From a virus: 64,000 nucleotides of DNA. The notes beneath the pieces were generated by a model. It searched no databases and was not told the origin of the DNA. It worked only from the letters and a program-made list of their open reading frames with translations. Below are positions 17,001 to 62,991 of this stretch, piece after piece (the stretch's first letter is position 1; every line of letters starts with the position of its first letter). The translations under genes were made by a program, and so were the position numbers. Where the stretch lies: positions 19,448-83,447 of the IMG/VR virus record IMGVR_UViG_3300024520_000055; one strand, given 5' to 3'.

Positions 17001-18757
17001 CGTTCCGTGATGTCCTCATCAATAACAGATGCGAACAGATTCCGGGCAACCCAGCGACAGACCAGGAGTACGATATCGCGTTCCACTCGGCACTTGGGCT
17101 GATGGCGGCCGAGATCGTCGGGTGCGAGGGAGGAAGAGAACTCACCCCGGTAGGCGGCTTCGGCGTGCACAACGGAATCAACTTCGTCGCCAAAACCGTG
17201 CATCACGCAGGGCCGCTGACCTTTATTATCCCCGCGGGAGGCCCCTTCGGGGAAATGTGGGCGTTCGCTGCTTGCATGCGTGACAATCACTTCGACATCA
17301 TCCAGCAGTTCGAAGACGAAACGGCCTCAACGAACGTGACCATTGGTGCCTTCTTGCCCTCGTTCTCTGCTGTGTGGCTGGACCCCGCTTTCAGAGCGCT
17401 CGCGCTCGAAGAGCCGGTCTCCACCATTGACGGGGCACCGTATGTCTATGGGATGCACTCGTCGGGAATGGTGTACGAGAACAACCAGCTTTCCCTTGCG
17501 GGCGTGACGACTTCGGGCCTCTACATCTCGGCAAACTACGTTGTCCTCGGAGCCAATTGGCTGCGCCGCATGGGACTCGACAACCTTCCCGGAGGGCCTC
17601 CGGCTATCGGAGACTCCCCGGTCAACTACATCTCGGTGCGCGACAACTTTGTTCGCGGCATCCGAACTGACGACTACAACGGCGCATCCAATGCCTCTGC
17701 GCATTACACGGTAGCAGCAAGTGCTGGAGGTGGCCTCAACAAGTGGGCCGATCCGGGCGGGGACAGCCTTTATTGGATGTGCGTAGGAGTCATCTCTCAT
17801 AACTACGGGTTCCCGCTGCTTTCCCCGGGACCTTTCGACTCACACACCCCGAGTGGGTATTCCCAAAGGATCATTCGCGATAGCGACATTGCGGCGCTGA
17901 CATTGGACGACGACTTCTGGGATGACAGCCGAATGAAATCTGTCAGCCTCGACTACGAACTCGAACCGGAAGTAGCAGGACGAAGGAACACGGTCCTCAT
18001 TGGAGGAGGAACGGGCAGGACGCTGGATCTTCCGCCGGATGCCCCCGACGGGACGTCATTCATCATCAAGGCTATTTCGGCAGGCCCACACACAATCGAC
18101 TGCGACCCGCTCTCAGGTGGAACCATCAAGTTCGAGGATGGGGTGACCACCACTCTGGCAAACGACGCGGTCAACGACATCATCGAGGTCATCCGGGAAG
18201 GTGACCGTTGGTACGTCTTGAACGTCGTCGGATGGGGATTGACCGCCTTCGATATCACGGTGCAGGAAGATGGCAGCAACATCCCGAACACGCCACACTC
18301 CACGCTAAACTTCACACAAGGAGTCCTTGCGGAGGACGGGGGCGCCGGGGTGGCGACCATTCTCGGCAGTCTGATCAAACAGGGTTCGAGTGTCTTGGCC
18401 TCCGACACGACGACTACTTCGGGTACTCCGGTTACGCTGCACTCATTTAGCTACACGAAGCTGAGGGCCGATTCACTTCTCATGGTCATTGCCATCGTTT
18501 CGGCCAGCAATGACAACAATGACAAGTGGATTCGTTTTCGGCTGCTCATCGGGGCTAGTGTTGAGTGCGGTGCGGCCATTGTGGGCAAGGCTAACGAGGG
18601 CAATTGCGCAACGCTGATCACAGTAGCGTCAGGTCTTGCTGCTGGGTCGCACACGCTTCTGGTTGATTGGGCAACAGAGGCCAATACTGCACAGTGTCAG
18701 CCTGCTACAACGGACTACGAGGAGTGCAAAATCTTTGCACTGGAAATTTTGATCTGA
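14069..18757 (+). CDS. Tailspike/tail fibre with parallel beta-helix
   Basis: 1562 residues. An N-terminal virion-anchoring part (residues 1-500, beta-rich) is followed by a segment near 530-720 and then a long region (about 720-1250) of short strands and turns rich in Asn, Gly, Ile and Val, typical of a right-handed beta-helix (for example I-D-F-I-G-I-G-S-E-D-N-R-P-I-V-V-F-D, an extended 'unique coil' ladder). Such folds act as receptor-binding or polysaccharide-degrading tailspikes. The C-terminal 130 residues look like a small beta-sandwich/lectin or trimerisation domain (S-Y-T-K-L-R-A-D-S-L-L-M-V-I-A-I-V). Catalytic acids cannot be assigned by eye. Confidence 0.75.
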   Translation: MTRDFIKFEEGNDTGDNLSESIAPVEAGDAASPQDQNRPLDVLRARTEVLRAACDNALFLAAEDRALAITCPGALHWGGPFDPTLAPVADEDALDGYTGRIGIGGDLHVVSLTTPNSTIFSSLQHTDIKFTTRKTAADGGRQVSIEIEDTTDVSVLTLTVTGTPKRHLLIQFDSGTSTPTVQEVFDALTDTADSAFNAEASALILPEITGTAGNPILELSKIYLVPGWDFEYHVIHKGVLDAFFNIDDNRLAEGDNLCLRFNTLLDRRQSLKDGTPSDGISVSPVTEPTVTETALVVGRNDTSHLENAIPLAKVDGGNLVLMNGVPLRPGHFWAPEGAQFSDSVSHTAREIHVRTVTLATFEISGGTIPKRHLLRTYLNTPRKRALKGNVVIIAGGAYYVEGQHFVVDSYRDSILQLVEFASAMGNVYFREMPDIAENLGASAATMGPPAALIGLDTRFFERHPDRDRMIDVQSALERLVITAVTVAEAAALSSRLEEVLGVYYSPIAGGRTVLNMGSLTGVRRMQAPTEMQTQYWQEYSGTRPNLWELGGRVLSPKQYGIVADGEALTDVGTLVPSGAFPIPSDLSATEQDFGANWATQGKPGTVDLATQIAAIQFGEAISGNALADKWRALVTSGSKALALTELRDYPMPVTVSPTGSRSFGLHNATHYGDSATVINAAVATARSRGLHQVFLMPGEYTIDAAVDAPDIDFIGIGSEDNRPIVVFDSSNMLSASFTGAFAALRLNNARNLNFAFKSNGTSSPNLHGIFETDANLISCIGVRNWVKECSFTSYDLRTNQTDLLNGGVSNGETVIFRQISAIIGDRYKSTAAPSGFMRADTVFGLFFPKVQDCFFLGMFMGIPTYSGTHASRAFIDLGAEEGDSYIAGWECSWYHQAMIGGFWDLDWLSSGTESDMRCFPLDLVNCGFVTCGVVIDSDEPPAAGSPTNPFEVDLDAGPAVAIQGMSIMAMARRVHQCTFRDVLINNRCEQIPGNPATDQEYDIAFHSALGLMAAEIVGCEGGRELTPVGGFGVHNGINFVAKTVHHAGPLTFIIPAGGPFGEMWAFAACMRDNHFDIIQQFEDETASTNVTIGAFLPSFSAVWLDPAFRALALEEPVSTIDGAPYVYGMHSSGMVYENNQLSLAGVTTSGLYISANYVVLGANWLRRMGLDNLPGGPPAIGDSPVNYISVRDNFVRGIRTDDYNGASNASAHYTVAASAGGGLNKWADPGGDSLYWMCVGVISHNYGFPLLSPGPFDSHTPSGYSQRIIRDSDIAALTLDDDFWDDSRMKSVSLDYELEPEVAGRRNTVLIGGGTGRTLDLPPDAPDGTSFIIKAISAGPHTIDCDPLSGGTIKFEDGVTTTLANDAVNDIIEVIREGDRWYVLNVVGWGLTAFDITVQEDGSNIPNTPHSTLNFTQGVLAEDGGAGVATILGSLIKQGSSVLASDTTTTSGTPVTLHSFSYTKLRADSLLMVIAIVSASNDNNDKWIRFRLLIGASVECGAAIVGKANEGNCATLITVASGLAAGSHTLLVDWATEANTAQCQPATTDYEECKIFALEILI

Positions 18758-21102: not shown

Positions 21103-21611
21103 CTCTTCTCCCTCGTTGATCTCCCCAGATCACATCCTTCTGCTATCAGAGCTAGCGCAAAAGCATCGGAGGTGTCAAGCGAGGTTGGGACGGTTCCCGT
21201 GATCTCCACCACCGCATCCCGCACATGCTCCTTTTTAGCCCCGCCGTTCCCCGCGGCAAACAGCTTCAACTGGGAAGGGGCCACGTCAACGTAGGGCACC
21301 TCTGCAACCGCGCAGGCTAGCCTCACGGCGCCCCCAACTTCGCCCGCAGCGAACGGACGGTAGGCTGCCTCGGTCGCATAGCTCTCGATGGCAACAAGCA
21401 CGGGGCGTTCTGCGCGCAGGAGGGCCAGCAGGCCCGCATAGATTTTACGCAGGCGGTCTCCGTCGCTTCCCCCAGGAACGGGCGTGGCTCGGACCTCCAT
21501 CTGAAGCCGGATCTCCCCGTTCTTCCAGACCGCTAGTCCCGTGCAAGTGTACGAGGGATCCACGCCCACATAAGCCTGCCCACGATTGGTTGCCCGCGCT
21601 CCCTCGTTCAT
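21024..21611 (-). CDS. RuvC-like Holliday junction endonuclease
   Basis: 195 residues from the ATG at 21611; a longer in-frame start at 21659 would run into the start of the divergent gene. RuvC-type RNase H fold: Y-V-G-V-D-P-S-Y-T-C-T-G near residues 12-22 (first Asp), V-A-I-E-S-Y-A near 75 (Glu), and D-T-S-D-A-F-A-L-A near 148 (paired Asp). RuvC enzymes cut four-way junctions; in phages they trim branched DNA before packaging. A basic C-terminal tail (K-P-N-P-K-K-P-R-S-K-K-P) may add DNA affinity. With the zinc protein it forms a two-gene minus-strand island inside late plus-strand genes. Confidence 0.8.
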   Translation of the reverse strand: MNEGARATNRGQAYVGVDPSYTCTGLAVWKNGEIRLQMEVRATPVPGGSDGDRLRKIYAGLLALLRAERPVLVAIESYATEAAYRPFAAGEVGGAVRLACAVAEVPYVDVAPSQLKLFAAGNGGAKKEHVRDAVVEITGTVPTSLDTSDAFALALIAEGCDLGRSTREKRCEAEVIRKILKPNPKKPRSKKPFNM

Positions 21612-21657
21612 AGTATTCTTTCTACCCGAGACCTCTGCGAAAGGCAAAGGGAACGCC

Positions 21658-24600
21658 ATGAGCTTAGACTTCAGTCCCGGTGTCTTCCTCTCGATCTACG
21701 GGGACATCGTTCCAGACGGCCCGCGACTTGTGCTCTCGACGCGGGTGACCTACCCGCGCAAGATCGGAGAGCTCTTTCTGTTCAGGTTCCCGTTCACAAT
21801 GCCTTCCGTGCGTCCCACTGCACAGAATGTGCAGTACTACTACAAGGATATTCTGGCACGCATTACACGCGCAGAAGAGATGCGCAGGTACCCCACCAAC
21901 CAGGCCCTCACGCTACGATCGGAAACCCTGCGAGCATCCGGCTACGGGCCCGACGGAACTACGGTTCCGGAGTGGGGTGACTTCATCCGGATCCTGATGC
22001 CTGCCCCGTTCTCCCCAGAACCTTTCGTGCCGCAACAAGCAGGTCCCAATGCAATCCCGTATGAGTCCGACACAATGCGCGTCATGGGACAGGAGCTCGA
22101 TGACGACAGCTTGCAGCGCATCTACTCAGGAAACTTCTTCCGCCGTTCGCGCGCTCCCCGAGAATGGGAACGTGGCTATCAGCGAATCGATCAGGTGTCG
22201 TTCGTAGGAGACAAGTTCGGATTTCCTGGGGGCTATTCCGTGGTCTCCCTTATCGATCTTCGAGAGTCTGCCCAGGTGCCTCAGTGGGTTGCAGACAACC
22301 AGAAGATGGCCCTCCTCGGTACGGTTGCCATCGGTGCTCTGGGATCGGGTTTCGCAGCAAAGATGCACGCCAATACTCCTTGGCGTCTCACAACGTCAAC
22401 GCAGCCCGAATTGGGGACGACATTCCACGACGGAATGGAGCCAGGGTTCCTGGAATTATATCCTCCCGACGAAGATGGATTTCCCGTCGAGGTTCGGGGG
22501 GTGCACGGCACCGCCAATGGCGGAGAGGGAGCTGACCGTTTCAGCATCAATCTCGACCTCACACGTTCAGACGGAGTGACCATTCCTGGTGGAGAGTTCT
22601 TCGAGCTCAGCGACAAAAACAATTTGCGCACCCTTCGCCTCACTTCCGGTGGGGGGATTCAGGGTGACTACACCATCATCGATGTCGACGATCAGATCGG
22701 CGCAACCGGGAAGTACCAGACGGCGGTCCTCGATGTCCCCTCCCCCGACAGCGGGGCATGCGACACAATCGTTGCGTCCAACCAGATCAATAACTTGTCA
22801 GGCACCATCGGAAACATCAGTGTTGGGAACACGATCACAGTCACTTCAGGTGCGGACGCAGGGTCCTACCGCGTTATCGCAGTGGGAGTTTCAACAGTCT
22901 ACGTCGAAGAGTTGAATGGAATTGCTACGTCGTTTGCGACGGGTTCTGTGGGACAAACCTACATCGTGCACGACGGAGGCCTCGACCAAAATGTCCCCTC
23001 GGTTTCCTGGGAAGTCCTTGCAGCAGATGGAGAGGTCCTCGAAGAGCTTCTTGTCAATCCGGAAAGCACGCTGACCGTATGCCGCTACATCTCGGACGCG
23101 GAGGTGTGGGTGAACGGCTTCGTGCCTCTTTCACCGTGGCGGGGAGAACTGCGTGCCATTTGGGTGGCACGTGCCTGGGTCCAAACCAACCCCACCTACA
23201 ACCAACTCTCCGAAATCGACGCAACGCGCAAGAACGTCATCGAACTCGAAAACGATCGCACCAAGACCATGTTCTTCCGCGAGTCGATGCTGGCCAGGTC
23301 AATCTTCGTCGAAGGCCCCGACTCAGAAGTAGGCGACCCAGCTCCCCTTTCTGACTCAGCCAACGGGAGGTACCGGTTCTCGGGGTTCCAGGGAGAGGCG
23401 TCAGGCGTAGATTACTCCGGTGCCGAGGGGACGATTCAGGATACGAATCTCTACGAGTACACGAGCCAGACAGAAAACTTTCAACAGTCGGACATCGGGA
23501 CGAAGCTCACCATCCTCGGGACGGAGTACTACATCGCTGATTTTCTCTTCCTCGGAGGGCACGGGCAGGTCGCATTCATGACCAATCTGGATGGGAGTCT
23601 TCCCTCTTTCAGCTCAACCGGCGCGACCCCGTCGGCGCACACCGTCGAAGACCGTTACTACGAGGCCACACTCGAAGTTGACTTCTCCCAGAAGGTCATC
23701 AACAACCTGGGCGATCCAGACGTACTGACCGATGTCCCTTGGCGCTTCATTCCCACTGTTCCCGTCGAGTGGACTATTCATGCTCCACTTTTCGACTGGA
23801 ATGCTCGTGCGATCCCAACAAGCCTAGGCGGTCTGGAGGACGGAAATCCGAACCTTATCCCCATCGACCCCGACACGGAGGCACATCTTCTGCAAGAAGT
23901 TCCCATCATCGAGGGCAACTACTACGCGGTGGATTTCCAAATCGACGTCGAGTCTTTTTCCGAGGAGGACTTCACCAACACGGGACGCTTCCGGATAGTA
24001 GCCCCCCCGAACGGACAGCTCCTGCCAGGGACATTTCGTGACGCACACGCGATCATCTGTCGGGGCGATCCGAATGCGCCACAGATCGTCTACGCCTACC
24101 CGGTGAACTACGATGACCCGGCATGGCAGAACAATGCGTATTCACAAGGAACCCTGGGGCAAATCGGCCTCAGTGGCAGCGTCTACGTTTTCACTAAGGA
24201 CAACGGGACACAGCCAGACTTCGTGGCGGGCATGGAGGATGACTTCATCTTGCAAATTCGCACGGAGGGGCCCGCCAAGGGCATCTTCACCATTGACAAC
24301 GTGTCCACGCCTCCCGACACCATCGACCTTCTCACGCTCAATGGGGAAACGTTGAATCTGTCCGGTCAGATCTGGACAGAGTTGGAGTGGGCGCTCTTCC
24401 CAGTAACCGACCCAGTGTCTGGGATCATCTCACAATCCGTCCGGTGCAGCGACCTCCGCTGCGTGCGCCAACCTGAACCTACAGCGCCCGGCTACGTTGG
24501 GGATACCTACTTCCGTCAGGACTTCTACATTGACATCTTCCCCAGCGTCGAGGAAGCCATCAACGCTCGTGAGGCCATCAAGCGGGAGATCTCCGCACTG

Positions 24601-24702
24601 ATGACCTCCTTCGGCGGAGAACTATCCGAGTTCGTCGTCGTCCAGGTCGAGGCCTACGGCCAGGTTGGAGAGGGCCTCCAGGAAGCCTTCTTCACTCCGT
24701 GA
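21658..24702 (+). CDS. Large virion structural protein
   Basis: 1014 residues. ATG at 21658 (M-S-L-D-F-S-P-G), 46 bases from the divergent RuvC start, with AAAGGGAA upstream; the earlier in-frame start at 21586 lies inside RuvC. The N-terminal 270 residues resemble an alpha/beta virion protein with hydrophobic segments (A-L-L-G-T-V-A-I-G-A-L-G-S-G-F-A) and the rest is beta-sandwich-like with Gly/Thr repeats. No known family. Together with the next two genes it forms a plus-strand unit at the end of the structural block. Confidence 0.6.
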   Translation: MSLDFSPGVFLSIYGDIVPDGPRLVLSTRVTYPRKIGELFLFRFPFTMPSVRPTAQNVQYYYKDILARITRAEEMRRYPTNQALTLRSETLRASGYGPDGTTVPEWGDFIRILMPAPFSPEPFVPQQAGPNAIPYESDTMRVMGQELDDDSLQRIYSGNFFRRSRAPREWERGYQRIDQVSFVGDKFGFPGGYSVVSLIDLRESAQVPQWVADNQKMALLGTVAIGALGSGFAAKMHANTPWRLTTSTQPELGTTFHDGMEPGFLELYPPDEDGFPVEVRGVHGTANGGEGADRFSINLDLTRSDGVTIPGGEFFELSDKNNLRTLRLTSGGGIQGDYTIIDVDDQIGATGKYQTAVLDVPSPDSGACDTIVASNQINNLSGTIGNISVGNTITVTSGADAGSYRVIAVGVSTVYVEELNGIATSFATGSVGQTYIVHDGGLDQNVPSVSWEVLAADGEVLEELLVNPESTLTVCRYISDAEVWVNGFVPLSPWRGELRAIWVARAWVQTNPTYNQLSEIDATRKNVIELENDRTKTMFFRESMLARSIFVEGPDSEVGDPAPLSDSANGRYRFSGFQGEASGVDYSGAEGTIQDTNLYEYTSQTENFQQSDIGTKLTILGTEYYIADFLFLGGHGQVAFMTNLDGSLPSFSSTGATPSAHTVEDRYYEATLEVDFSQKVINNLGDPDVLTDVPWRFIPTVPVEWTIHAPLFDWNARAIPTSLGGLEDGNPNLIPIDPDTEAHLLQEVPIIEGNYYAVDFQIDVESFSEEDFTNTGRFRIVAPPNGQLLPGTFRDAHAIICRGDPNAPQIVYAYPVNYDDPAWQNNAYSQGTLGQIGLSGSVYVFTKDNGTQPDFVAGMEDDFILQIRTEGPAKGIFTIDNVSTPPDTIDLLTLNGETLNLSGQIWTELEWALFPVTDPVSGIISQSVRCSDLRCVRQPEPTAPGYVGDTYFRQDFYIDIFPSVEEAINAREAIKREISALMTSFGGELSEFVVVQVEAYGQVGEGLQEAFFTP

Positions 24703-34077: not shown

Positions 34078-35745
34078 TTGGGTGCTCCCAGTAAAAACCC
34101 GATCGAAGTTCGGCGCTCCGAGTTTACCGAGAAAGCCCTGCGCCTTGAAGGGCGCCCGTTCAGTTTTAAGGGGTACGAACTCTTCATCCCTATCTACGAT
34201 TCCCACGCTGATGAAACTCATCTGATGACGGGGCGCCAAGTCGCGAAATCCACAACGTGCGCCAACTTCAGTCTCGCCGAAACCGCGATCATTCCTTTCT
34301 TCAAGATCCTTTACACCTCACCGACCCGCGAGCAGACTCGCAAGTTCTCCACCACCAGGGTGGGGAAGACCATGGCGCACTCTCCGGAGTATCGCAACCT
34401 GTACGTCCATCCTGAGCTGTCGCAAAACGTGCTCCAGAAAATCATGCGTAACGGATCGGAGTTGCACTTCACCTACGCCGCCGACGACCCCGACCGGGCC
34501 CGCGGAATCTCTGCCGACAGGCTCCTCGCAGACGAGACCCAGGATGTGCATTACGACGCAGTCATCCCGGTCCTCCGTGAGTGTCTGTCCGCCTCGAAGT
34601 ACGCTTACATCACCACTGCTGGGACTCCGAAGACCATGGAGAACTCAATGGAGTTCCTGTGGCGGAGGTCAACGCAGCACGAGTGGGGTCTGCGCTGCCC
34701 CGGGTGTTCGAAGATCAACTTCATTATCGATGAGAAGTCGATCGGCCTGAAAGGTCCTATCTGCAAATACTGTGGGCACCTGCTCGACGTGGTTCCGAAC
34801 TACCACCCGCGCTTCGACAAGCGGAATGGCTTCTGGGTACCTGCCAACCCAGACAAGGATAGACAGGGCTTCCATATCCCGCAGCCGGTGCTGTCTCTCC
34901 ACGCCAACGACCCGAAAAAGTGGAGGATGCTCCTTTCCAAAATGCCCGACGGGGACGCGGGATACTCCCTTTCGCGGTTCAAGAACGAGGTCCTGGGCGT
35001 CTCCGACGCTTTGGGCAAGCGTATGATCACGCGCGATCATCTCATCTCACTGTGCGACGCCAATGAGACGTTCGCGTCACCTCCAAATAAGGGGTGGAAC
35101 AAGGGAATCAGCAACATCGCCGCAGGGATCGACTGGGGAGGTGGTAGCGTTATCAAGAAGGGCACCTTGTCCGACATGGACGTCGTCTCCCGTACGGTGC
35201 TGTGGATCTGGGGGATGTGGAAGGGGCGTGCGTACAAATGTCTCTTCTACAAAGTGTTCCCCGCGGACCACCCCATCCACGACATCGCGGAGATCATCCA
35301 CTACCTGAAAGAGTTCAACGTTGAGATGGTTTATGGCGACGCGGGCGAAGGACACGTTGCCAACAGCATGATCCAGGAAGCCCTCGGACCGGGGCGTCTC
35401 TACCAATGCCAGTATGGTTTCCACAAGAAACCGCTCACCTGGAATGCACACGATCGCTACCTGTTGGACCGCACCACCATCATCGACTGCTTCTTCCTCC
35501 AGCGCGTTCTAAAAAAGAGGGTGGTCTTCGCCAACAAACAGCAGATGACTGCGGCGTTTGATGACTTCCTCGCCGAGTATGAGGAGGTCACCATGGACGG
35601 AACGGGGCGCCGCGTGTGGCGGCATGCCCCGGCCGAGCCCGATGACGCGTTGCATGCAGCTATCTTTGGCTGGCTCGCAATGATGAGCCTGACCACAGAC
35701 TACAACGACATCGCCGCTTTCGACACGTCCCTGATTACGCAGTAA
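34078..35745 (+). CDS. Terminase large subunit
   Basis: 555 residues from a TTG at 34078 with GGAGG seven bases upstream; no earlier ATG is available. Packaging ATPase motifs: Walker A-like G-R-Q-V-A-K-S-T near residue 52, Walker B L-L-A-D-E-T-Q-D near 149, and a T-T-A-G-T-P coupling motif near 180. Nuclease (RNase H-like): G-I-D-W-G-G-G near 350, V-Y-G-D-A-G-E-G near 420, and P-D-D-A-L-H-A near 523. A four-Cys zinc site (C-P-G-C at about 207, C-K-Y-C at about 228) is inserted between ATPase and nuclease. TerL cuts concatemers and pumps DNA through the portal (51644-53437, far away here). RNA locus 2 starts at its stop codon. Confidence 0.9.
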   Translation: MGAPSKNPIEVRRSEFTEKALRLEGRPFSFKGYELFIPIYDSHADETHLMTGRQVAKSTTCANFSLAETAIIPFFKILYTSPTREQTRKFSTTRVGKTMAHSPEYRNLYVHPELSQNVLQKIMRNGSELHFTYAADDPDRARGISADRLLADETQDVHYDAVIPVLRECLSASKYAYITTAGTPKTMENSMEFLWRRSTQHEWGLRCPGCSKINFIIDEKSIGLKGPICKYCGHLLDVVPNYHPRFDKRNGFWVPANPDKDRQGFHIPQPVLSLHANDPKKWRMLLSKMPDGDAGYSLSRFKNEVLGVSDALGKRMITRDHLISLCDANETFASPPNKGWNKGISNIAAGIDWGGGSVIKKGTLSDMDVVSRTVLWIWGMWKGRAYKCLFYKVFPADHPIHDIAEIIHYLKEFNVEMVYGDAGEGHVANSMIQEALGPGRLYQCQYGFHKKPLTWNAHDRYLLDRTTIIDCFFLQRVLKKRVVFANKQQMTAAFDDFLAEYEEVTMDGTGRRVWRHAPAEPDDALHAAIFGWLAMMSLTTDYNDIAAFDTSLITQ

Positions 35746-51643: not shown

Positions 51644-53437
51644 ATGAGCAGCGGGTGGTCTTTCGGAGTGGGCGCGGGTACCGGATTTGGCGGGGGACTG
51701 AATCAGGACTCGGCCGCACACCACAACCCAATGCTCGATTACTTGCAGGGGTTTCAGGCGCGCGACCTGAAGACCTTGTTCCTGTGGTGCGAGTATCTGT
51801 TCTACCAATCCCCCCACATCTTCGCGGCGACCCGGAAGTTCTCCGAGTATCCCATCACGGAGATTACCTACAAGACCAAGAGCACCAAGCTCAAGGACAG
51901 GTACGAAGGAGTCCTCGAACACATCCTCTACATCAAGGCTGTCCTACAGCGCGCCGCGATGGACCGGCAGGTCTACGGAAACTATCTGGCCTCTCCCTAT
52001 TTCCCCTTCCAGCGTTTTCTCTGCTGCCCCCGTTGCGGGGCAAAAACAAATATCGAGAAGGTCGACTATCAGTACCGCTGGCAGTCGATCGCGTTCGACT
52101 ACATCTGCCCTTCATGCGACACCAAGGTTGTGGGCGCCAAGGCGGAAGACCAGGACGTCCTCGACGTCGCTCGCTTCAACATCATTCGCTGGGATCCGAA
52201 GTACATCGACATCGACTACAACCCGCTGTCGGGCGAGTCCATTTACTTCTACACCATCCCGGGCCACATCAAGGATTCCATCAAGAAGGGCAACAAGCTC
52301 CTCATCAACACAACGCCGATGTCCTTCCTGGAGTGCATCAAGGAAGGAATGCTGCACCGGTTCCACAAGAACCGCATCTTCCACATGAAGACCAGGGCCC
52401 CTGCGGGCATCACGATGGCGTGGGGCATGCCTCCCATCGTGGCCACGCTGCGGCAGTTCTTCTACACAGCGATCTTGCGCAAGGCCAACGAAGCCATCGC
52501 TTTCGAATATCTGATTCCTTTCAGGGTCATTTCCCCTGGGATGAACACACCGAATGCGGACCCTGCCATCACGATGCAGATGTCCAAGTTCATGAACAAC
52601 TTCAAGGACGAGTTCAAGAAGTGGCGCAAGGACCCGCTGCACCTGATGTTCGCCCCGTTCAAGGTGGAGGCTACCTACGTTGGCGGTCAAGGGCGCACGC
52701 TGATGACCATCGCCGAGATCCAGGAAGCGGAGAACAACATCATTGCCGCACAGGGCATCCCGCGTGAGTTCCTCTTCGGAGGCCTCTCGTTCACCGGCTC
52801 CGCCATCACTTTGCGCATCCTCGAGAATCAGTTGCAGAATGATACCGCCGACCTCAACAAGCTGCTCCAGCAGATCGCAGACTGGATTGCGCAGTACTTC
52901 CGTTGGCGGCGCATCACTCTGGAGATGGTGCCGTTCAAGCTGATCGACGATGTTCAGCAGAAACAACTTCTGCTCATGCTCGCGCAGGGGGCTACGGGAC
53001 AACCCGTTGTGTCGAACACAACCCTGCTCGATTCCTTCGGCAAGGACATCGACGAGGAGCGCAAGCTCCGCAACAAGGAACTGCTGGAAGAGATGCGGGC
53101 GCAGATGGATCTCGAGATCCAGATGACCGAACTTCAGAACAACCTTGCCCTCGGCGCACAGCAGAACGCAGCGCAGGGACAGGCCGGGGGCGGCGTAGGA
53201 TCATACGACCAGCAAGCCATCATCGCTGAAGCCGATGCGATGGTGCAGGAACTCGTGATGATGGACCCGGGGCAAAAGCAAAGCATCCTCGACGGACTCG
53301 TGGCCGAAGACGCTGTCTTCCACGCGGTCGTGGTGCAGCGCCTTCAACAGGCTCAACAAAACCTGACGGCCCAGGCTAAGGCCGAGGTGACGGGACAGGG
53401 GGGCGGCGCTGCTCCCCCGCCCCAGGAGGGAATGTAA
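51644..53437 (+). CDS. Portal protein with inserted zinc ribbon
   Basis: 597 residues, ATG with GGGAGG upstream. The order of features fits a large-phage portal: an N-terminal clip/wing alpha/beta part, a central 'H-M-K-T-R-A-P-A-G-I-T-M-A-W-G-M-P-P-I' motif (turret before the stem helices), helices with 'Q-G-I-P-R-E-F-L-F-G-G-L-S-F-T-G-S-A', and a long helical, Gln-rich C-terminal barrel (L-Q-N-N-L-A-L-G-A-Q-Q-N-A-A-Q-G-Q). A Cys4 zinc ribbon (C-C-P-R-C-G near 127, C-P-S-C near 155) is inserted near the N-terminus, unusual for portals. Portals form the dodecameric DNA gate of the head. Linked to the next gene by two-base spacing. Confidence 0.75.
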   Translation: MSSGWSFGVGAGTGFGGGLNQDSAAHHNPMLDYLQGFQARDLKTLFLWCEYLFYQSPHIFAATRKFSEYPITEITYKTKSTKLKDRYEGVLEHILYIKAVLQRAAMDRQVYGNYLASPYFPFQRFLCCPRCGAKTNIEKVDYQYRWQSIAFDYICPSCDTKVVGAKAEDQDVLDVARFNIIRWDPKYIDIDYNPLSGESIYFYTIPGHIKDSIKKGNKLLINTTPMSFLECIKEGMLHRFHKNRIFHMKTRAPAGITMAWGMPPIVATLRQFFYTAILRKANEAIAFEYLIPFRVISPGMNTPNADPAITMQMSKFMNNFKDEFKKWRKDPLHLMFAPFKVEATYVGGQGRTLMTIAEIQEAENNIIAAQGIPREFLFGGLSFTGSAITLRILENQLQNDTADLNKLLQQIADWIAQYFRWRRITLEMVPFKLIDDVQQKQLLLMLAQGATGQPVVSNTTLLDSFGKDIDEERKLRNKELLEEMRAQMDLEIQMTELQNNLALGAQQNAAQGQAGGGVGSYDQQAIIAEADAMVQELVMMDPGQKQSILDGLVAEDAVFHAVVVQRLQQAQQNLTAQAKAEVTGQGGGAAPPPQEGM

Positions 53438-54423: not shown

Positions 54424-57400
54424 ATGAGCGACGGAATCTACCCAATCCTGGCGCGTCCCAAAGAACGCCAGGAACGAATCAGAGAGCAGGCCCTTGCAGG
54501 CCTTCGTGACGTGTTCCCGATGCAACTTGATCGGCACACGCTCGAACTCGAGGACGCCCAGCTGAAAGAGCAATCATTCAGCCCCTCCCAGCAAAAGAAA
54601 GCCATCTTGAGTGGGGGGAACCTTTTCGAATCCGTCCAGGCCAAGCTGGCATTGCGCAACGCCGACGGAAAGGTCGTTGATCGCATCAAGACCAACGTGC
54701 TGCACCTTCCGTATCTGACACCACGCGGCACGTTCGTCGTCAAGGGCACCGAATACGAGATCCCGAACCAGCTCCGGTTTCGCCCCGGAGTCTACACGCG
54801 ACACCGCGTCAACGGAGACCTGGAAGCCTGGTTCAACCGCTCGCGGGGAGCAAATTTCCGCGTTGCAATGGACCCCTCCACGAGCCATTTCGGCATGGAG
54901 CTCGGTGCCACGCGCATTCCGCTCTACCCCGTGCTGAAGGGGCTAGGCATCCCAGACAAGGAAATCCAGAACCAGTGGGGGAAGGAAATCCTGTCCCAGA
55001 ACCAGGACTGGGCCGGAAGCGACAAGGCGGTAAACACCGCCATCGGACGCCTCTACAAAAAGCTCACGCCAGCCCACGCACAGACTGCGAAATCCTTGGA
55101 GCAGCGACAAGCCGCAATCCGCGAGCACCTGTCAATGGACTCTCTGGACTCTGAAGTAATGCGCACGACACTGGGGACTCCTACGCGCACAGCAGATCCT
55201 GCCACGGTACTCCAGGCCTCTGGGAAGCTCCTCCGCGTTTTCAAGGGAGAGGCCGAGCCGGACGACAGAACTAGCACGCCATTCTTGAGCATCCACAGCG
55301 CGGATGACTTCTTCCGCGAGCGCATGAATCTCGACGCGCGTGCTTTACGTCGTAAACTCGCGATGAAGCTGCGACACAAAGGCACCTCTCTCGACAAGGT
55401 CGTGCCCCCCGGAATGTTCACCCGGGGCCTGCGCAACTTCATCACGACATCCGCGCTTTCGGCCAACCCCACGCAGATCAATCCGATCGAGATGATCGAC
55501 CACGCCAGCAAGATCACGTTCCTGGGTGAAGGTGGAATCGCAGACGATCGGGCCGTCCCGCCTGAGACACGTCGCGTACATTGGTCCCAGGTCGGAATCA
55601 TCGACCCCATCCGAACACCCGAGAGCTTCAACATCGGGATCGACGTTCGTGCTGCGGTCCGGGCAGGGCGTGACCAGGACGGACGTCTCTACGCTCGCCT
55701 GCTGGACGATCGAGGAAACCAAACCTGGGTTCCGGCAACGGCGCTCCCAGGGAAGAACATCGCATTCCCCAACCAACCGGACCGTGGTCGCGTCGACGTG
55801 TTGAACACCGGGGAGATCCGCCGAGTGCCTGTAGCTCAGGTCGATTACCGTGTCCCCTCGGGGGCACATTTGCATGGGGTCGCCTCGAACCTCGTTCCGT
55901 TCGTTGAGAGTTCCCAAGGCAACCGGCTTCTGATGGGCGCCAAGATGGCGACACAGGCCGTTCCCCTTGTCGAGCGCGAAGTGCCACTCATCCAGGTCGG
56001 AGAGCGCAGAGAGGATCGTTCTTTCGAAGACCAGTTCGGGCGCATGGTAGTCCCCACGTCTCCTGTGGAGGGCCGCGTTGCCAAGATTGACAAGGACTTC
56101 ATCTACATTCGGCCTGCGCGGGTGAAGAAAGCAGCCTACATCGAAAAGCGTGCCTGGGGAGTCGTCAAGTACCGCCAATTCAAACACATCCGCATCGCCA
56201 TCGAGAACCCCAAAGACTCAACGCGCTCCGGCGTGGATACAGACGGCCACAAGTGGTCGCAGAAAATGAGAGACGACTACGGTTACATCCCCGGAACAAC
56301 CACGTCTGCCGACAAAGAAGGGCTGGACGCTTTCGTAGGAACAGATCTTTCGTCCACGCACGTATTCGTCATTCACCAGCTTGACGGGCACGGGGACTTC
56401 GATGAGCTGAAGGTGATGATCGGGTACCCGAACGAGCGGACGGCGAAGGCGCACTATCTGCACAACTACGACAAGACCTGGGGCGAGCATCGCATCAAGC
56501 AGATCGACAAGTTTACAAACGAGGAGTTCCGTGACCGCTACATCCCGGAGTTCAAGAAGGCGGCGGCGTCGCAGCGGGATCTGATCCGTGTTCCCTACGA
56601 CACGAATTTCCCGCTCTCCTCGAAGACGTTCCTCCAAAACGATCTCTCTGTGAAGGTGGGAGACAAGGTCAAAGCGCGGCAGCCCCTGGCCGAGTCCAAT
56701 TTCACTCGGGGAAGCACCCTGGCTCTTGGCAAGAATCTGGACGTCGGCTACATGCCCTACCGCGGCCTGAACTCCAACGACGCCGTCGTGGTGTCTGAAG
56801 GCGCCGCGAAAAAGATGACGTCGAGCCACATGTATCAGAAGCGGTACTTGCCCGACGTCGACTCCATTCCCGGGCGCAAGCTGCACGAAACATACTTTGG
56901 GAACAAGTACACCAAGGACCAGTACAAGAACTTGAACTCCAAGGGCGTTGCGCGGCCGGGTAGTCTCGTGGTGCATGGTGACCCCATCATCGTAGGGGTA
57001 CGCAAAACAAAGCCCACGGCGGAAGCACAGATCCTGGGGCGCTTCCACAAGTCCCTGGTGAAGCCCTACGCTGAGGAAGCGATCACCTGGGACCACGAGG
57101 AGCCTGGAGAAATCATCGACGTTGTGCAGCAGCCCAATGGGCGCACCGCTGTCACAGTGAAGATGAATGCTCCGGTCCAAATCGGTGACAAGCTCTCCAA
57201 TCGCTACGGGGGCAAGGGCGTCGTTTCCGCCATCATCCCCAATGAACAGATGGTGCGGCGCCCTGACGGCAAGCCAGTGGATCTTCTGTGGTCGGGACCA
57301 GTGCTGATCAGTCGCATCAATCCTGCCCAGATCATCGAGACGGCCGCCGCCAAGGTCGCCAAGAAGCTGGGCAAGCCCATTCGCGTTCGCCCCTATGCTG

Positions 57401-59214
57401 GGCACGACAATGTCGCTTGGGCCAAGAAGCTCCTGAAGGACAACGGCCTGAGTGACAAAGAAGATCTCCTGGATCCCGTCACAGGGAAGACCGTCAAGGA
57501 TGTGATGGTCGGTCCTCAGTACATCTACAAACTGTTCAAATCGACCGACACCAACTTCTCCAGCGCTGGCGTCGGCAGCTACGACCTGAACCAGCAGCCT
57601 TCCTCCCACGGAGAGACCGGAGCGAAGCGCCTCGGACGGATGGAGATCAACGCGCTCCTTGCACACAACGCACGGAACATTCTGCGCGAGGCCACAACCG
57701 TCAAGTCCGATAAGCAAGATGAGTTCTGGCGCTCGATGCAACTCGGCCAACCCCTCCCCAGTCCAAAGGCGAGCTTCGCCTACGACAAGTTCCTCACCCT
57801 GCTGCAAGGGGGTGGCGTGCGCGTGAAGAAGGACAAGGACATCTTGTCTTTCGGGCCTCTCACCGACAACGACATCAAGAAGCTCGACACTCGAGCGCTC
57901 AAGAACCCCTTGATGGTGCGTGCCAAGGACCTCCGTCCAGAAAGAGGTGGACTATTCGATCCCGCAATCACAGGTGGACCACAAGGACAGCGATGGTCCC
58001 ACATCGACCTCGACGAACCCGTGATCAATCCCGTCTTTGTCGAACCCGTCCGAAGATTGCTCGGCGAGACCGAGAAAGGGTTCAGAGAGAGGCTCGCAAA
58101 AACTGGTGGTGGTTCGATCAAGAAGGAATTAAATTCCATCAATGTCGGCAGCCGCCTCCGAAGCCTCGGGCAGAGGATTCCGAAAGCCTCCGCCTCCGCG
58201 AGAGACGATCTCATCAAACAGCGGAAGTATCTGGAGGCACTACGGGACAATGGACTTCGACCCGGGGACGCGTACGTGGTGTCACGTGTGCCTGTAATTC
58301 CACCGGTTGCCCGACCGTTTGTACCTACCAAGGGCTCTAAGGATCTGCTGATCTCGGATGTGAACTATCTGTACCGAGACACCATGCTTGCCAACGACGC
58401 GTTGAAGGAAGCGAAGAAGTTGTTGCCTCCCCACGAGGTCGCCAAGGCACGGGGGCACCTCCAAGACTCGGTTGGCGCAGTGTTCGGGATGAACGATCCT
58501 GTCAGCCCCCAGCAACAGGGAAGAAACGCCAGAGGCCTGCTCGGCATCGTTTTCGGAAGCAACCCCAAGAGCAGCTATTTTCAGTCTCGCCTGATGCGCA
58601 GACCGCAGGCGCTCTCTTCGAGGGGAACTGCCGCGCCCGACATGTCACTGGAGATGGACGAGTTCGGGATGCCCGAAGAGATGGCCTGGGCCAACTACGG
58701 GCCGTTTGTGATGCGCCGCCTGGTACGCAACGGCTACCCTGCAACGGACGCAAAACAGATGATCGAGGACAAGGTGCCCGCGGCCCACACGGCACTCGTC
58801 CAGGAGACGCGGGAGCGCCCGGTCCTCCTCAACCGCGCCCCCACCCTGCACCGGCACGGAATCGTTGCCGCATATCCACGGCTGATTCCGGGGAAGACGA
58901 TCAGAGTGAACCCTTACATCGAGGAGGGGATGAACCTCGACTACGATGGCGACACGCTTCAGTTGCATGTCCCTGCGTCTCCGACGGCCAACGACGAGGC
59001 CAAAAGGCTGACACTGCCCAACATGCTGTTCACCGACAAACAGCGTGACGCCCTTCTGGTCTTCCCCCAGCAAGAGGCTATCTTGGGAACGTGGCTCGCC
59101 TCACATGGTCCCCGAAAGGGCGTCAAGGCGAAGAAGTTCAAGACCCAGGCGGAAGCAATGCAGGCATACCACCAGGGCAAGCTGAAGCTCGATGACCCGG
59201 TGAAGATTGGCTGA
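54424..59214 (+). CDS. RNA polymerase beta / N-terminal beta' fusion with pyrophosphatase insert
   Basis: 1596 residues. Beta: T-P-R-G-T-F-V-V-K-G-T-E-Y near residue 98, N-R-L-L-M-G-A-K-M-A-T-Q-A-V-P near 498, G-D-K-L-S-N-R-Y-G-G-K-G-V-V near 921-933 with both active-site Lys, and the clamp-proximal L-G-R-M-E-I-N-A-L near 1075. Residues about 590-705 are an insert matching soluble inorganic pyrophosphatase: I-E-N-P near 593, D-D-Y-G-Y-I-P-G-T 617-625, D-K-E-G-L-D 630-635, D-F-D-E-L-K 658-663. Beta' then runs from about 1110: G-G-L-F-D-P, V-I-P-P-V-A-R-P-F-V, L-L-N-R-A-P-T-L-H-R and the catalytic N-L-D-Y-D-G-D at 1504-1510. The N-terminal zinc domain of beta' is absent. It ends just after the double-psi barrel; the rest of beta' is at 61183-62991. 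Confidence 0.93.
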   Translation: MSDGIYPILARPKERQERIREQALAGLRDVFPMQLDRHTLELEDAQLKEQSFSPSQQKKAILSGGNLFESVQAKLALRNADGKVVDRIKTNVLHLPYLTPRGTFVVKGTEYEIPNQLRFRPGVYTRHRVNGDLEAWFNRSRGANFRVAMDPSTSHFGMELGATRIPLYPVLKGLGIPDKEIQNQWGKEILSQNQDWAGSDKAVNTAIGRLYKKLTPAHAQTAKSLEQRQAAIREHLSMDSLDSEVMRTTLGTPTRTADPATVLQASGKLLRVFKGEAEPDDRTSTPFLSIHSADDFFRERMNLDARALRRKLAMKLRHKGTSLDKVVPPGMFTRGLRNFITTSALSANPTQINPIEMIDHASKITFLGEGGIADDRAVPPETRRVHWSQVGIIDPIRTPESFNIGIDVRAAVRAGRDQDGRLYARLLDDRGNQTWVPATALPGKNIAFPNQPDRGRVDVLNTGEIRRVPVAQVDYRVPSGAHLHGVASNLVPFVESSQGNRLLMGAKMATQAVPLVEREVPLIQVGERREDRSFEDQFGRMVVPTSPVEGRVAKIDKDFIYIRPARVKKAAYIEKRAWGVVKYRQFKHIRIAIENPKDSTRSGVDTDGHKWSQKMRDDYGYIPGTTTSADKEGLDAFVGTDLSSTHVFVIHQLDGHGDFDELKVMIGYPNERTAKAHYLHNYDKTWGEHRIKQIDKFTNEEFRDRYIPEFKKAAASQRDLIRVPYDTNFPLSSKTFLQNDLSVKVGDKVKARQPLAESNFTRGSTLALGKNLDVGYMPYRGLNSNDAVVVSEGAAKKMTSSHMYQKRYLPDVDSIPGRKLHETYFGNKYTKDQYKNLNSKGVARPGSLVVHGDPIIVGVRKTKPTAEAQILGRFHKSLVKPYAEEAITWDHEEPGEIIDVVQQPNGRTAVTVKMNAPVQIGDKLSNRYGGKGVVSAIIPNEQMVRRPDGKPVDLLWSGPVLISRINPAQIIETAAAKVAKKLGKPIRVRPYAGHDNVAWAKKLLKDNGLSDKEDLLDPVTGKTVKDVMVGPQYIYKLFKSTDTNFSSAGVGSYDLNQQPSSHGETGAKRLGRMEINALLAHNARNILREATTVKSDKQDEFWRSMQLGQPLPSPKASFAYDKFLTLLQGGGVRVKKDKDILSFGPLTDNDIKKLDTRALKNPLMVRAKDLRPERGGLFDPAITGGPQGQRWSHIDLDEPVINPVFVEPVRRLLGETEKGFRERLAKTGGGSIKKELNSINVGSRLRSLGQRIPKASASARDDLIKQRKYLEALRDNGLRPGDAYVVSRVPVIPPVARPFVPTKGSKDLLISDVNYLYRDTMLANDALKEAKKLLPPHEVAKARGHLQDSVGAVFGMNDPVSPQQQGRNARGLLGIVFGSNPKSSYFQSRLMRRPQALSSRGTAAPDMSLEMDEFGMPEEMAWANYGPFVMRRLVRNGYPATDAKQMIEDKVPAAHTALVQETRERPVLLNRAPTLHRHGIVAAYPRLIPGKTIRVNPYIEEGMNLDYDGDTLQLHVPASPTANDEAKRLTLPNMLFTDKQRDALLVFPQQEAILGTWLASHGPRKGVKAKKFKTQAEAMQAYHQGKLKLDDPVKIG

Positions 59215-60493
59215 CCTCCTCCCAGGCCTCACCCGTTCCCAGGTTGAGAAGTACTACGCCCGTCCCGAGGTCCAGATCGAACTGCTCAATCAGTTCGGCT
59301 CACGTCCTGTGTCAGTCGTCCAAGTGCAGGAGGACGGTGACAAGATCTTCAAGCGGAAGCGCGGTGGCAAGTACATCAAGATCCCCGATGCCCAGGACAT
59401 CTCCTACTGGGCCTCGCGGCGCCACGCCGAGTTCCACCCGACCACAGGGAAAACCACCGAGCAGTTCGTCGTCGACATTGACCCGGGCCCTGATGCTTCG
59501 TTTTCTGATGTAAAGGGCGCGACCCAAGCGGTTGTCGATGTCCTCAACAGCCGCTTCCCGAGTGAGGACACGATCGTTGCGTTCTCCGGCGGGCGGGGAT
59601 TCCACGTCCGTCACCCTATCGGTAAAATGATGCGCACGCGCGGAGCGCGCGCTACCCTGATGGGGGCTCTCCGGGGGCTCGAGGGTACGACGTTCCGGAA
59701 ACCGGAGGGCAAGGACATCCGGCTCGACATGGTTGCAATGAAGCCCATGGGCTCTGTCCGCGCCATCGGGTCGTTGAATGCTACGACGGGGTTGAGGGCG
59801 ATGAAGGTCAACCTGGGAGACATCGGGGCGTTTGAGCCGGGCATGGCCAAGGTGGCAAAGTTCGTCACGAGGAAGCGCCTTCTGGAGTACGCGGAAAAAC
59901 TTCGACTCAAGGATGCGCAGTTCGCCCCCGGCCTCCCCGACAAGGGAACCACGACACCCATCCGTCCCGACGACGTGGGCGACCCGTTCTCCATGGCAAT
60001 CCAGAAGCACAAGACGGACAGGTCCAAGGGACGATCACACTACGATATGCGTCTCGTTGACGAAGAATCGGGCATCGCCCACTCCTGGGCCATTCCGAAG
60101 TCGCGGCTCCCGTCACGCCTTGGAGAAAAGTTGCTGGCCGTCCAGCAGCCTGACCACACGTCCGACTACGCCAAGAACTTCCAGGGCCGAATTGCCGAAG
60201 GCTACGGCGCAGGCACAGTACAAACCAAGGCCCCGAAACCTGCTGACATCCTCAAGGCAGATCTGAGCAGCATCATCTTCCAAGTGATGAACGGCTCGAA
60301 CAAGGTCTTCAACATGCGCCGGATGGGGAAAGACCCGAAACAATGGTTCATCCAGAAGCTCGATGCACGCACGCACGGAAGACGTCCGATGCGCATGTCG
60401 GCAGCCGGGCTTGGAGGAGAAGGCGGGATCGACGTGCCCAAGGTGGAGGAGATCAAGCCTCCGAAGATTGCCGAACCGCCGAGGGTCTCGTAG
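59207..60493 (+). CDS. Archaeo-eukaryotic primase-polymerase fused to LigD-type phosphoesterase
   Basis: 428 residues from a TTG at 59207 overlapping the polymerase stop by 8 bases; the frame is closed by TGA at 59201, so no earlier start exists. Residues 1-230 are an AEP/LigD-Pol domain: F-V-V-D-I-D-P-G near 87 (DxD), F-S-G-G-R-G-F-H-V near 126-134, R-A-I-G-S-L-N-A-T-T-G near 185 (PriS-type). Residues 255-410 are a LigD 3'-phosphoesterase domain: Q-K-H 266-268, H-Y-D-M-R-L 278-283, D-H-T-S-D-Y 316-321, Y-G-A-G-T-V near 336, and W-F-I-Q-K near 393. No ligase domain. These domains extend or trim 3' ends in bacterial NHEJ. Its place between the halves of beta' suggests a link to transcription or priming. 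Confidence 0.82.
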   Translation: MADLLPGLTRSQVEKYYARPEVQIELLNQFGSRPVSVVQVQEDGDKIFKRKRGGKYIKIPDAQDISYWASRRHAEFHPTTGKTTEQFVVDIDPGPDASFSDVKGATQAVVDVLNSRFPSEDTIVAFSGGRGFHVRHPIGKMMRTRGARATLMGALRGLEGTTFRKPEGKDIRLDMVAMKPMGSVRAIGSLNATTGLRAMKVNLGDIGAFEPGMAKVAKFVTRKRLLEYAEKLRLKDAQFAPGLPDKGTTTPIRPDDVGDPFSMAIQKHKTDRSKGRSHYDMRLVDEESGIAHSWAIPKSRLPSRLGEKLLAVQQPDHTSDYAKNFQGRIAEGYGAGTVQTKAPKPADILKADLSSIIFQVMNGSNKVFNMRRMGKDPKQWFIQKLDARTHGRRPMRMSAAGLGGEGGIDVPKVEEIKPPKIAEPPRVS

Positions 60494-60941: not shown

Positions 60942-61186
60942 TGGCAATCGATCTCACCAAGATTGGGGCGCCTGGCGGCGAGCCTCCCCAGGATTTCCTC
61001 GAAGCCCTGCGCGACTTTGCGCACACGGGCGTGGGACTTCCCGGGGGAGGAATGAAGTACGACAACACCTCTGGATTTGTTGGGCGTCCCCCTGCGGGCT
61101 ACCCGCACGGGCTAACGTTTGACCGTTCCATCCCGCTCAACATTGGGCAGGCAGAGAGGCTCCCCGGCGACTGGGGAATCAAGTGA
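60941..61186 (+). CDS. Small hypothetical protein
   Basis: 81 residues, start overlapping the previous stop (TGATG) and end overlapping the next start, so translation is coupled to the beta' C-terminal gene. Gly/Pro-rich with few secondary-structure segments (G-A-P-G-G-E-P-P, G-L-P-G-G-G-M-K-Y, G-R-P-P-A-G-Y-P). Could be an omega-like or assembly peptide of the polymerase, or an unrelated virion peptide; nothing in the sequence decides. Confidence 0.5.
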   Translation: MAIDLTKIGAPGGEPPQDFLEALRDFAHTGVGLPGGGMKYDNTSGFVGRPPAGYPHGLTFDRSIPLNIGQAERLPGDWGIK

Positions 61187-62991
61187 CCCTTTCCTTCGGG
61201 CAGCATCTGATCAAGGGATATCTCCCCCCGGGGACGCGTCTTGATCGTGGCCCGTTGAACAAACGCCGCCTGCGCTCTGCTTTTCTGGACATGGCCAAGA
61301 ACGACCCCACTGCCTATGTGCACAACATGCAGGGGCTAAAGGCCGTCGCAGATGAGGTTGCCACGCTGGAACCCCTCTCCCCCGGACTGGACGACATCAC
61401 TCCGAACTACGTGAAACAGCGAGCTCTCTTCGCGGGCGCGCAGAAGCGCCTAGATGCAGCACGGACGTATCCTCAAAAGCTGTCCGTCCTCGCCGACGCG
61501 CAGTCGCGCGCCGTGAACCTGGCGATGACACATCCTGGAAGTCTGGCCCGCGAAGTTGAGGCGGGTGCCCGCGGTTCCCCCAGCCAGCTCATCAAGACCG
61601 TAGTCTCCCCCGTTGTGGCAATGAAGCACGACAAGACGGTGTACCCTTACTTGATCCACCACAGTTTCGCGGAGGGACTGTCCCCTGCCGAAGCGTGGCT
61701 TGCAAATTCCGAAGCACGTCTCAACGCGATGGCTGCCAACCTGTCCGTCTCGGAGCCTGGAGACTTGAGCAAGATCTTCATCAACAACATGGCGGACCAA
61801 GTCATCGCCAGTGAGGATTGTGGGACAACCAATGGGATCGCACTTCCTTCAAACAGCCCCGAACTGCGTGACAGATACCTTGCCAAACCGGCAGCAGGCC
61901 TACCGCACAACACTCTTGTCACTGCTGAAGTTGGCAAGCGACTCGCCAGAACTCGCGGGCTCGTTGTTGTACGCTCGCCTTCCACCTGCGAGCTCCCAAA
62001 TGGCATCTGTCAACGGTGCATGGGGCTCAACGAGGTAGGGCAGAATCACGACATTGGGATCAACGTTGGTGTCCGTGCGGGACAGGTCCTCTCCGAACCG
62101 CTGACTCAGATGGCCCTGGACTCAAAACACGGAGTGAAGCTGTCCACAACCAAGGGACGCGAGCTTCGTACCATCGAGCGATTGCGACAAATTGTCGAGG
62201 TGCCTGCCTCGATGGCCAACATGGCAGTCGTCGCGGAGGAAGAAGGCAAGGTCGAGAAAATCGAGAAGGCGCCACAGGGCGGCCACTACATGCACGTCGC
62301 GGGACAACGGTACTACACGCCCCCCGAAGCTCCTCCTCTTGTGCGTCCTGGTTTTCACGTGGAGGCGGGCGACGCCCTCGCTGACGGAATCCCCAACCCC
62401 AAGGACGTTACACGCCTGAAGGGAATTGGCGCGGGGCGTGACTACCTCATCCAACGGCTGGACGACCTTTACTCGTCCTCTGGGCATGACCTCGACAGAC
62501 GGCACCTGGAAATCCTGGCCAAGACGCACCTGAACTACGCCCAGATCTGGGATCCGGGAAGCATCCCCGGCCTCCGTGCAGGTGACATGGTGGCACACTC
62601 TGCTCTTCGCGGGCGTCTTCGTGAGGCCTCCAAGGAACGTTCGCTTAAAGAGACAAAGGGGCACGTACTCGGGGATGACTACTTGCACTTCACCGCGGGC
62701 TCTCCCATCACAAAGTCCGTGCAAGACGCGCTGCGCGAGGCCAAAATTTCCAAGGTGAAAACGCTTCCTCCCGGAGAGGCCCCGCGCCTCGAGTTCGTGA
62801 TGAAGCCGCTTTCGCGTAACCCGCTCCTCAATCCGGATGTTCTGTCACGCATGGGACACCGTTATCTCAAGACGGCTCTTCTGGAAGGGGTTCACTCAGG
62901 CGGGACAGCCCGTCTTCGGGGGTTCAATCCCATCCCAGCTCTTGCCTATGGACAAAGTTTCGGGCTACCTTCAGCGCGAGGTAAATACTGA
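61183..62991 (+). CDS. RNA polymerase beta' subunit, C-terminal half
   Basis: 602 residues from a GTG overlapping the previous stop. It continues where the fusion stops: L-S-P-G-L-D-D-I near 68 (beta' 'S-V-G-I-D-D-M' region), A-G-A-R-G-S-P-S-Q-L near 127 and F-A-E-G-L-S-P-A-E-A-W near 163 for the bridge helix. The C-terminal zinc site is complete: Cys213 (E-D-C-G-T), Cys269, Cys276, Cys279 (S-T-C-E-L-P-N-G-I-C-Q-R-C-M). The trigger-loop segment E-P-L-T-Q-M-A-L-D-S-K-H keeps the catalytic His (316), but the Met-Arg of bacterial enzymes reads Leu-Asp. The jaw and C-terminal clamp are short compared with bacterial beta'. Confidence 0.9.
   Translation: MTLSFGQHLIKGYLPPGTRLDRGPLNKRRLRSAFLDMAKNDPTAYVHNMQGLKAVADEVATLEPLSPGLDDITPNYVKQRALFAGAQKRLDAARTYPQKLSVLADAQSRAVNLAMTHPGSLAREVEAGARGSPSQLIKTVVSPVVAMKHDKTVYPYLIHHSFAEGLSPAEAWLANSEARLNAMAANLSVSEPGDLSKIFINNMADQVIASEDCGTTNGIALPSNSPELRDRYLAKPAAGLPHNTLVTAEVGKRLARTRGLVVVRSPSTCELPNGICQRCMGLNEVGQNHDIGINVGVRAGQVLSEPLTQMALDSKHGVKLSTTKGRELRTIERLRQIVEVPASMANMAVVAEEEGKVEKIEKAPQGGHYMHVAGQRYYTPPEAPPLVRPGFHVEAGDALADGIPNPKDVTRLKGIGAGRDYLIQRLDDLYSSSGHDLDRRHLEILAKTHLNYAQIWDPGSIPGLRAGDMVAHSALRGRLREASKERSLKETKGHVLGDDYLHFTAGSPITKSVQDALREAKISKVKTLPPGEAPRLEFVMKPLSRNPLLNPDVLSRMGHRYLKTALLEGVHSGGTARLRGFNPIPALAYGQSFGLPSARGKY

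Follow-up and report, generated by a model that had tools for sequence, protein, structure and literature searches.

A pyrophosphatase-family domain inserted in the RNA polymerase beta subunit of an uncultured phage, at a hairpin that may act as a cargo site

An inorganic pyrophosphatase (InPase) domain lies inside the RNA polymerase (RNAP) beta subunit of an uncultured virus. The parent record spans 83,447 bases (IMG/VR record IMGVR_UViG_3300024520_000055), and the window analysed here, a stretch of 64,000 nucleotides, is part of that record. The domain is a real and recurrent insertion in phage multi-subunit RNAP and a variation on the polyvalent-protein theme, and the mechanism of the original prediction is not the best supported one. 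The explanation modestly favoured here is that the hairpin at about residues 563-722 is a cargo site and that the beta/beta' fusion doubles as a polyvalent carrier of accessory enzymes.

The insert is carried by an open frame of 1596 amino acids that joins RNAP beta to the N-terminal half of beta'. The parts of the fusion and the neighbouring genes are, in window coordinates:

34078-35745: terminase large subunit (GpA_ATPase)
51644-53437, + strand: portal protein, upstream of the beta fusion (phrog_2739, E=5.7e-05)
54424-59214, + strand: RNAP beta fused to the N-terminal half of beta', with the insert (Pfam Rpb2_3, Rpb2_6, Rpb2_7, Rpb1_1, Rpb1_2)
54424-56109, + strand: beta N-terminal part, residues 1-562
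56110-56175, + strand: left linker, residues 563-584, variable, low pLDDT at 571-575
56125-56136, + strand: K-K-A-A in the left linker, residues 568-571
56176-56535, + strand: InPase domain, residues 585-704 (PF18823)
56536-56589, + strand: right linker, residues 705-722, low pLDDT at 712-716, with a flank motif
56554-56565, + strand: K-K-A-A in the right linker, residues 711-714
56590-57828, + strand: beta C-terminal part with the catalytic-barrel domain Rpb2_6, residues 723-1135
within 56590-57828: conserved GDKLSNRYGGKGV, residues 921-933
58933-58953, + strand: beta' catalytic motif NLDYDGD, residues 1504-1510, aspartates invariant among relatives
59207-60493, + strand: frame with LigD-like Prim-Pol and 3'-phosphoesterase domains, between the beta' pieces (PF21686, E=2.2e-10; PF13298, E=6.2e-10)
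61183-62991, + strand: beta' C-terminal half, a separate gene (Rpb1_5, E=2.8e-15)

To either side of the insert, the domain matches and the predicted fold are those of multi-subunit RNAP beta. Pfam places Rpb2_3 at residues 351-406 and Rpb2_6 at residues 761-1059, and an AlphaFold2 model of residues 336-1100 (pLDDT 85.5, pTM 0.73) matches RNAP beta chains in the PDB (E 4.7e-46). The break in beta' (58933-59214 / 61183) falls shortly past the catalytic barrel motif and resembles the split in jumbo-phage and cyanobacterial RNAPs (PMC7598289).

Residues 585-704 match the Pfam family InPase (PF18823) with 119.9 bits against a gathering cut-off of 26.8 (E=9.1e-35). This bears out the soluble pyrophosphatase domain that the original prediction had placed in beta, at 56190-56540, a span close to the computed one. 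No second InPase was found anywhere in the 83,447-base record. Profile searches against the PDB retrieve the gp19 portal chain 9b41 (E=2.8e-22) and the pyrophosphatase chain 5tea (E=1.1e-5). In an hhalign comparison with Escherichia coli Ppa (probability 88%), YGYI falls opposite NYGYI and DKEGLD opposite DGDPVD, and the insert of one relative, L007, also scores above the cut-off of the pyrophosphatase family PF00719. Together, 5tea, Ppa and L007 establish sequence homology to solved type I soluble inorganic pyrophosphatases.

The putative active site is largely shared across the family. Y619, D630, D635 and K663 never vary among 25 InPases (11 of RNAPs, 14 of other phage proteins), while position 594 is Glu or Asp, 632 Asp or Glu and 661 Glu or Asp. 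The second Asp of the DxDxxD-type metal site is replaced by Glu here, and either residue occurs there across the phage InPase family. The residues singled out originally (E594, D630, E632, D635, D658, D660 and K663) all stand at those numbers, but D658, like D654, is not conserved across the 25; the closest catalytic analogues are E594, Y619, D630, D/E632, D635, D/E661 and K663. From these motifs, the insert may hydrolyse pyrophosphate.

Structure prediction, which had been proposed as a check on the domain, gave a mixed answer. The AlphaFold2 model of the InPase domain (pLDDT 84.6, pTM 0.80) matches models of phage inorganic pyrophosphatase domains in a Foldseek search of BFVD (E 2.8e-13, TM 0.79), a predicted fold like that of other PF18823 members. 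Against the PDB, however, the InPase model has no Foldseek match at E<=0.001 (the best hit, at 0.084, is unrelated), and with no solved pyrophosphatase matched by fold, the catalytic claim rests on sequence. The model of residues 336-1100 places the domain between two low-confidence linkers.

Comparison with insert-free relatives confirms a clean insertion. The corresponding beta/beta'N fusions of Salmonella phage Arash (gp206) and Vibrio phage D69 lack the insert, and their alignment is continuous through the site apart from a clean gap of about 150 residues that corresponds to the insert and its linkers. With Rpb2_3 and Rpb2_6 on its flanks, the domain is thus the true insert, bordered by beta motifs on both sides, that had been proposed. 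The metagenomic phage L001 carries the insert at the identical place, with 88% identity in the InPase part and 86% overall. Between this phage and L001, a Nei-Gojobori-style calculation (own script, this one pair) gives dN/dS of 0.041 for the InPase, 0.055-0.057 for flanking beta and 0.27 for the two linkers combined; the ratios are rough, given that synonymous sites approach saturation. The InPase is clearly constrained, under purifying selection about as strong as that on the polymerase, and the linkers are much less so. The source is a metagenomic contig, which invites the thought of an assembly chimera or a chance similarity, but the junctions are identical in the independent contig L001, the same site is filled in several other metagenomes, and the family match stands at E=9e-35. 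Such an artefact is almost certainly not the explanation, and a chimera is rejected because independent contigs share the insertion.

Relatives show that the hairpin is a variable site. Well over 100 relatives, with loci labelled L001-L168, came from scans of contigs in IMG/VR and GTDB, and removal of rows more than 95% identical left 125 lineages. In 89 of these the hairpin is empty and in 20 it carries a short extension, the two being divided by our own length threshold; 11 lineages hold an InPase, three a GNAT acetyltransferase (L065, L117 and L158) and one another domain, and one is unread. Pfam confirms the InPase in 11/11 of the InPase-bearing lineages. In L018 (7648-8214; also L019 and L020), a phrog_30942 domain occupies the same hairpin. 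Some inserts are composite: L085 has a further domain N-terminal of the InPase (phrog_17560, ParB-like by eye), L096 holds the InPase between a further domain and a P-loop kinase-like domain within one insert, and L076 has an extra stretch after the InPase. Across relatives one site holds InPase, GNAT and other domains, with several stacked in L085 and L096; the protein in the window carries one.

Domains have been gained or lost at the site repeatedly. On a beta tree built with insert columns removed (a quick IQ-TREE run with SH-aLRT support only), the minimum number of changes is five for InPase, three for GNAT (as separate gains) and nine for any domain. GNAT-bearing L117 is nested among close relatives with an empty hairpin, and GNAT-bearing L158 is the sister of L124, which lacks GNAT. 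On the InPase tree the RNAP label changes twice, and L097 adjoins the InPases of jumbo phages. The AU test does not reject one origin shared by every RNAP InPase (p=0.11), and some of the scatter may accordingly reflect loss; one ancient gain followed by loss is compatible with that test, set against the at least five changes needed on the beta tree.

Insertions elsewhere in the fusion are of a different kind. Nearly all others of at least 60 amino acids cluster at about 408, 925 and 1510, within conserved RNAP motifs; the exceptions are single cases near 496 (L057, with a broken frame) and at the 3' end of L001, and those of L034, L038 and L156 sit slightly off a cluster. Of four such inserts scanned, one has no match and the other three contain LAGLIDADG, homing-endonuclease or intein domains; LAGLIDADG or intein domains are present in the ones scanned at 925 and 1510. 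Among the inserts scanned, non-intein enzyme domains occur at the hairpin only. An intein reading of the hairpin insert is rejected, since the InPase sits in a variable hairpin and the intein-like inserts lie at other sites.

The intein-like insertions, at or near about 408, 925 and 1510, are some 330-540 amino acids long (that of L160, at 408, is shorter). Their carriers are L031, L032, L034, L038, L039, L041-L043, L049, L050, L066, L068, L075, L080, L092, L095-L097, L100, L108, L123, L125, L153, L156 and L160. In Vibrio phage D181 (L005, 5806-6423) a homing endonuclease gene splits beta into two open reading frames, and beta of L057 (about 7525-8693) is broken at the same position.

Genes around the fusion are arranged consistently, with the polymerase after the portal. 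In 97 of the 102 loci with enough flank, the fusion is preceded by a portal homologue in the same orientation, and in 81 of the 102 there is a SNF2-type helicase on the opposite strand; in Arash the upstream gene is annotated as portal. The C-terminal half of beta' lies downstream in 76/82 loci with enough flank, and the LigD-like frame is downstream of beta in 23/82. This order is consistent with a polymerase that, like virion RNAPs, is produced together with head proteins, and is short of proof of packaging; going by gene order, the RNAP is probably virion-associated. Elsewhere in the window, the terminase matches PF03237 weakly, the very long frames at 10579-13977, 14069-18757 and 21586-24702 have no Pfam match, and the latter two have no PHROGs match either.

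Short motifs flank the cargo in most filled sites. K-x-[AGS]-[ASEGP] follows the left strand in nearly all of them, a similar motif precedes the right strand in most, and in L096 similar motifs also lie between the stacked domains. At least two copies occur in 91% of InPase loci, all GNAT loci and 1% of empty loci, an enrichment that is suggestive only, because chance copies are likelier in long inserts and the left copy is inherited from a common ancestor. In RNAP-neighbouring proteins of relatives, KTAA occurs 54 times against 13.4 expected from shuffled sequences, about fourfold, unlike most of its permutations; the permuted control AATK occurs 5 times against 11.9 expected. These motifs might be protease sites, which is a guess. 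On that guess, cargo would sit between K-x-A-A-type processing sites, the injected RNAP would deliver it, and a maturation or host-entry protease might free it, a scheme that we consider unlikely. An argument for processing sites from the window alone was set aside, as KTAA-type sites are rare there, and is a lead only. Target-site duplication by a mobile element was likewise rejected: in most loci the two flanking copies are encoded by different codons, which lends no support to a recent duplication.

InPase, GNAT and other domains recur at one hairpin and nearly all the other large inserts look intein-like, and the hairpin is on these grounds read as a cargo site; because it is repeatedly empty or filled with various enzymes, the polymerase seems to serve as a carrier as well. 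Accessory enzyme domains, flanked by flexible linkers, would come, go and replace one another at a single surface hairpin that tolerates them, and the fusion would be packaged or assembled with the head. Here the cargo would be the InPase-family domain, a predicted metal-dependent phosphohydrolase that acts on pyrophosphate or a related phosphoanhydride. Cleavage might take place in the host early in infection, with the domain tethered to the polymerase or released from it, to the presumed benefit of the infection. InPase, however, accounts for 11 of the 15 domain cargoes, a share that weighs against random cargo and suggests a connection with polymerase chemistry. This share also favours dedicated clearance of pyrophosphate (PPi), in which the InPase would hydrolyse PPi from its own polymerase, pull synthesis forward and prevent pyrophosphorolysis. 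RNAP makes PPi, the active-site positions are conserved and under purifying selection, and Iyer et al. (2017, PMC5512222) already propose such a role for phage InPases generally. Yet 89 of the 125 relatives do without the insert, and portal fusions of this InPase family involve no polymerase. Clearance of PPi is a doubtful, though live, possibility, and a general cargo or polyvalent role accounts for more of the data, given the GNAT, ParB-like and kinase-like domains at the hairpin and the InPases in non-polymerases. The mechanism of the original prediction, a built-in enzyme that drives synthesis and blocks pyrophosphorolysis, is thus possible, but not specifically supported: other domains share the hairpin, and InPases occur in portals and DarB-type proteins.

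Other readings concern the substrate and the activity of the insert. It could act on a host nucleotide-like or signalling phosphoanhydride, as an anti-defence enzyme, in place of PPi. Neighbourhoods of InPases with NUDIX and TmrB, and the nucleotide-like substrates suggested by Iyer et al. (2017, PMC5512222), point that way, as do the divergence of the phage family from cellular pyrophosphatases and the frequent occurrence of Glu where the metal site would have its second Asp. The positions of the pyrophosphatase pattern YGYxP...DxxxxD...K are nonetheless kept, and a substrate of this kind seems quite improbable. Bacterial beta subunits bear non-catalytic lineage-specific insertions, a precedent for a catalytically dead insert that would serve as a structural module or contact DNA or protein, and the Glu at the second metal-site Asp could be taken the same way. 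Invariance of Y619, D630, D635 and K663 over 25 diverse InPases, the dN/dS of 0.041 and the different enzymes at the same site in relatives make a dead domain very improbable.

Known systems frame the favoured reading, in which the hairpin is a cargo site. Iyer et al. (2017, PMC5512222) place InPase, ParB and GNAT among the domains of phage polyvalent proteins and count the N4 virion RNAP as one such protein. The same source reports an MPTase peptidase in about 36% of polyvalent proteins, where it is not required; Pfam finds no peptidase domain in the beta fusion. InPases of the polyvalent, portal and DarB type (the BcepF1 and Pa193 portals, for example) share PF18823, the predicted fold and the residues, and likewise lie in large proteins, whereas here the InPase is inside an RNAP subunit. 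N4-type virion RNAP is also a phage polymerase with accessory effector domains, and that of N4 is injected, but it is a single-subunit, T7-type enzyme with the other domains alongside and not in an internal hairpin (PMC5512222). The AR9/PBS1 virion RNAP has a multi-subunit beta piece with an N-terminal HD phosphohydrolase domain, similarly of a phosphohydrolase family; it differs in being a terminal fusion, of a different enzyme family, in a different RNAP lineage (PMC7598289). The mReC phages are Caudoviricetes with a deep-branching multi-subunit RNAP, drawn partly from IMG/VR, whose beta and beta' are HMM-detectable as near cellular RNAP (Weinheimer & Aylward 2020, PMC7481178); the words pyrophosphatase, insertion and split are absent from the main text of that paper. 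Arash gp206 and D69 share the fusion and gene order, with the portal upstream, but their hairpin is empty of cargo. An RNAP-InPase fusion was not found in the available part of Iyer et al. (2017, PMC5512222) or in the other literature searched, all of it open-access, and the original statement that no InPase was known inside an RNA polymerase holds within that literature.

Empty and filled forms occur in close relatives, with Arash and D69 as named phages of the empty form, which makes both PPi clearance and the cargo role directly testable. For RNAP protein engineering, the hairpin could further point to a site that tolerates insertions. If the cargo reading is correct, a multi-subunit RNAP would be a chassis for swappable enzymes with its fold retained, and the polyvalent-protein idea would reach beyond single-subunit virion polymerases and portals to polymerases of the cellular type.
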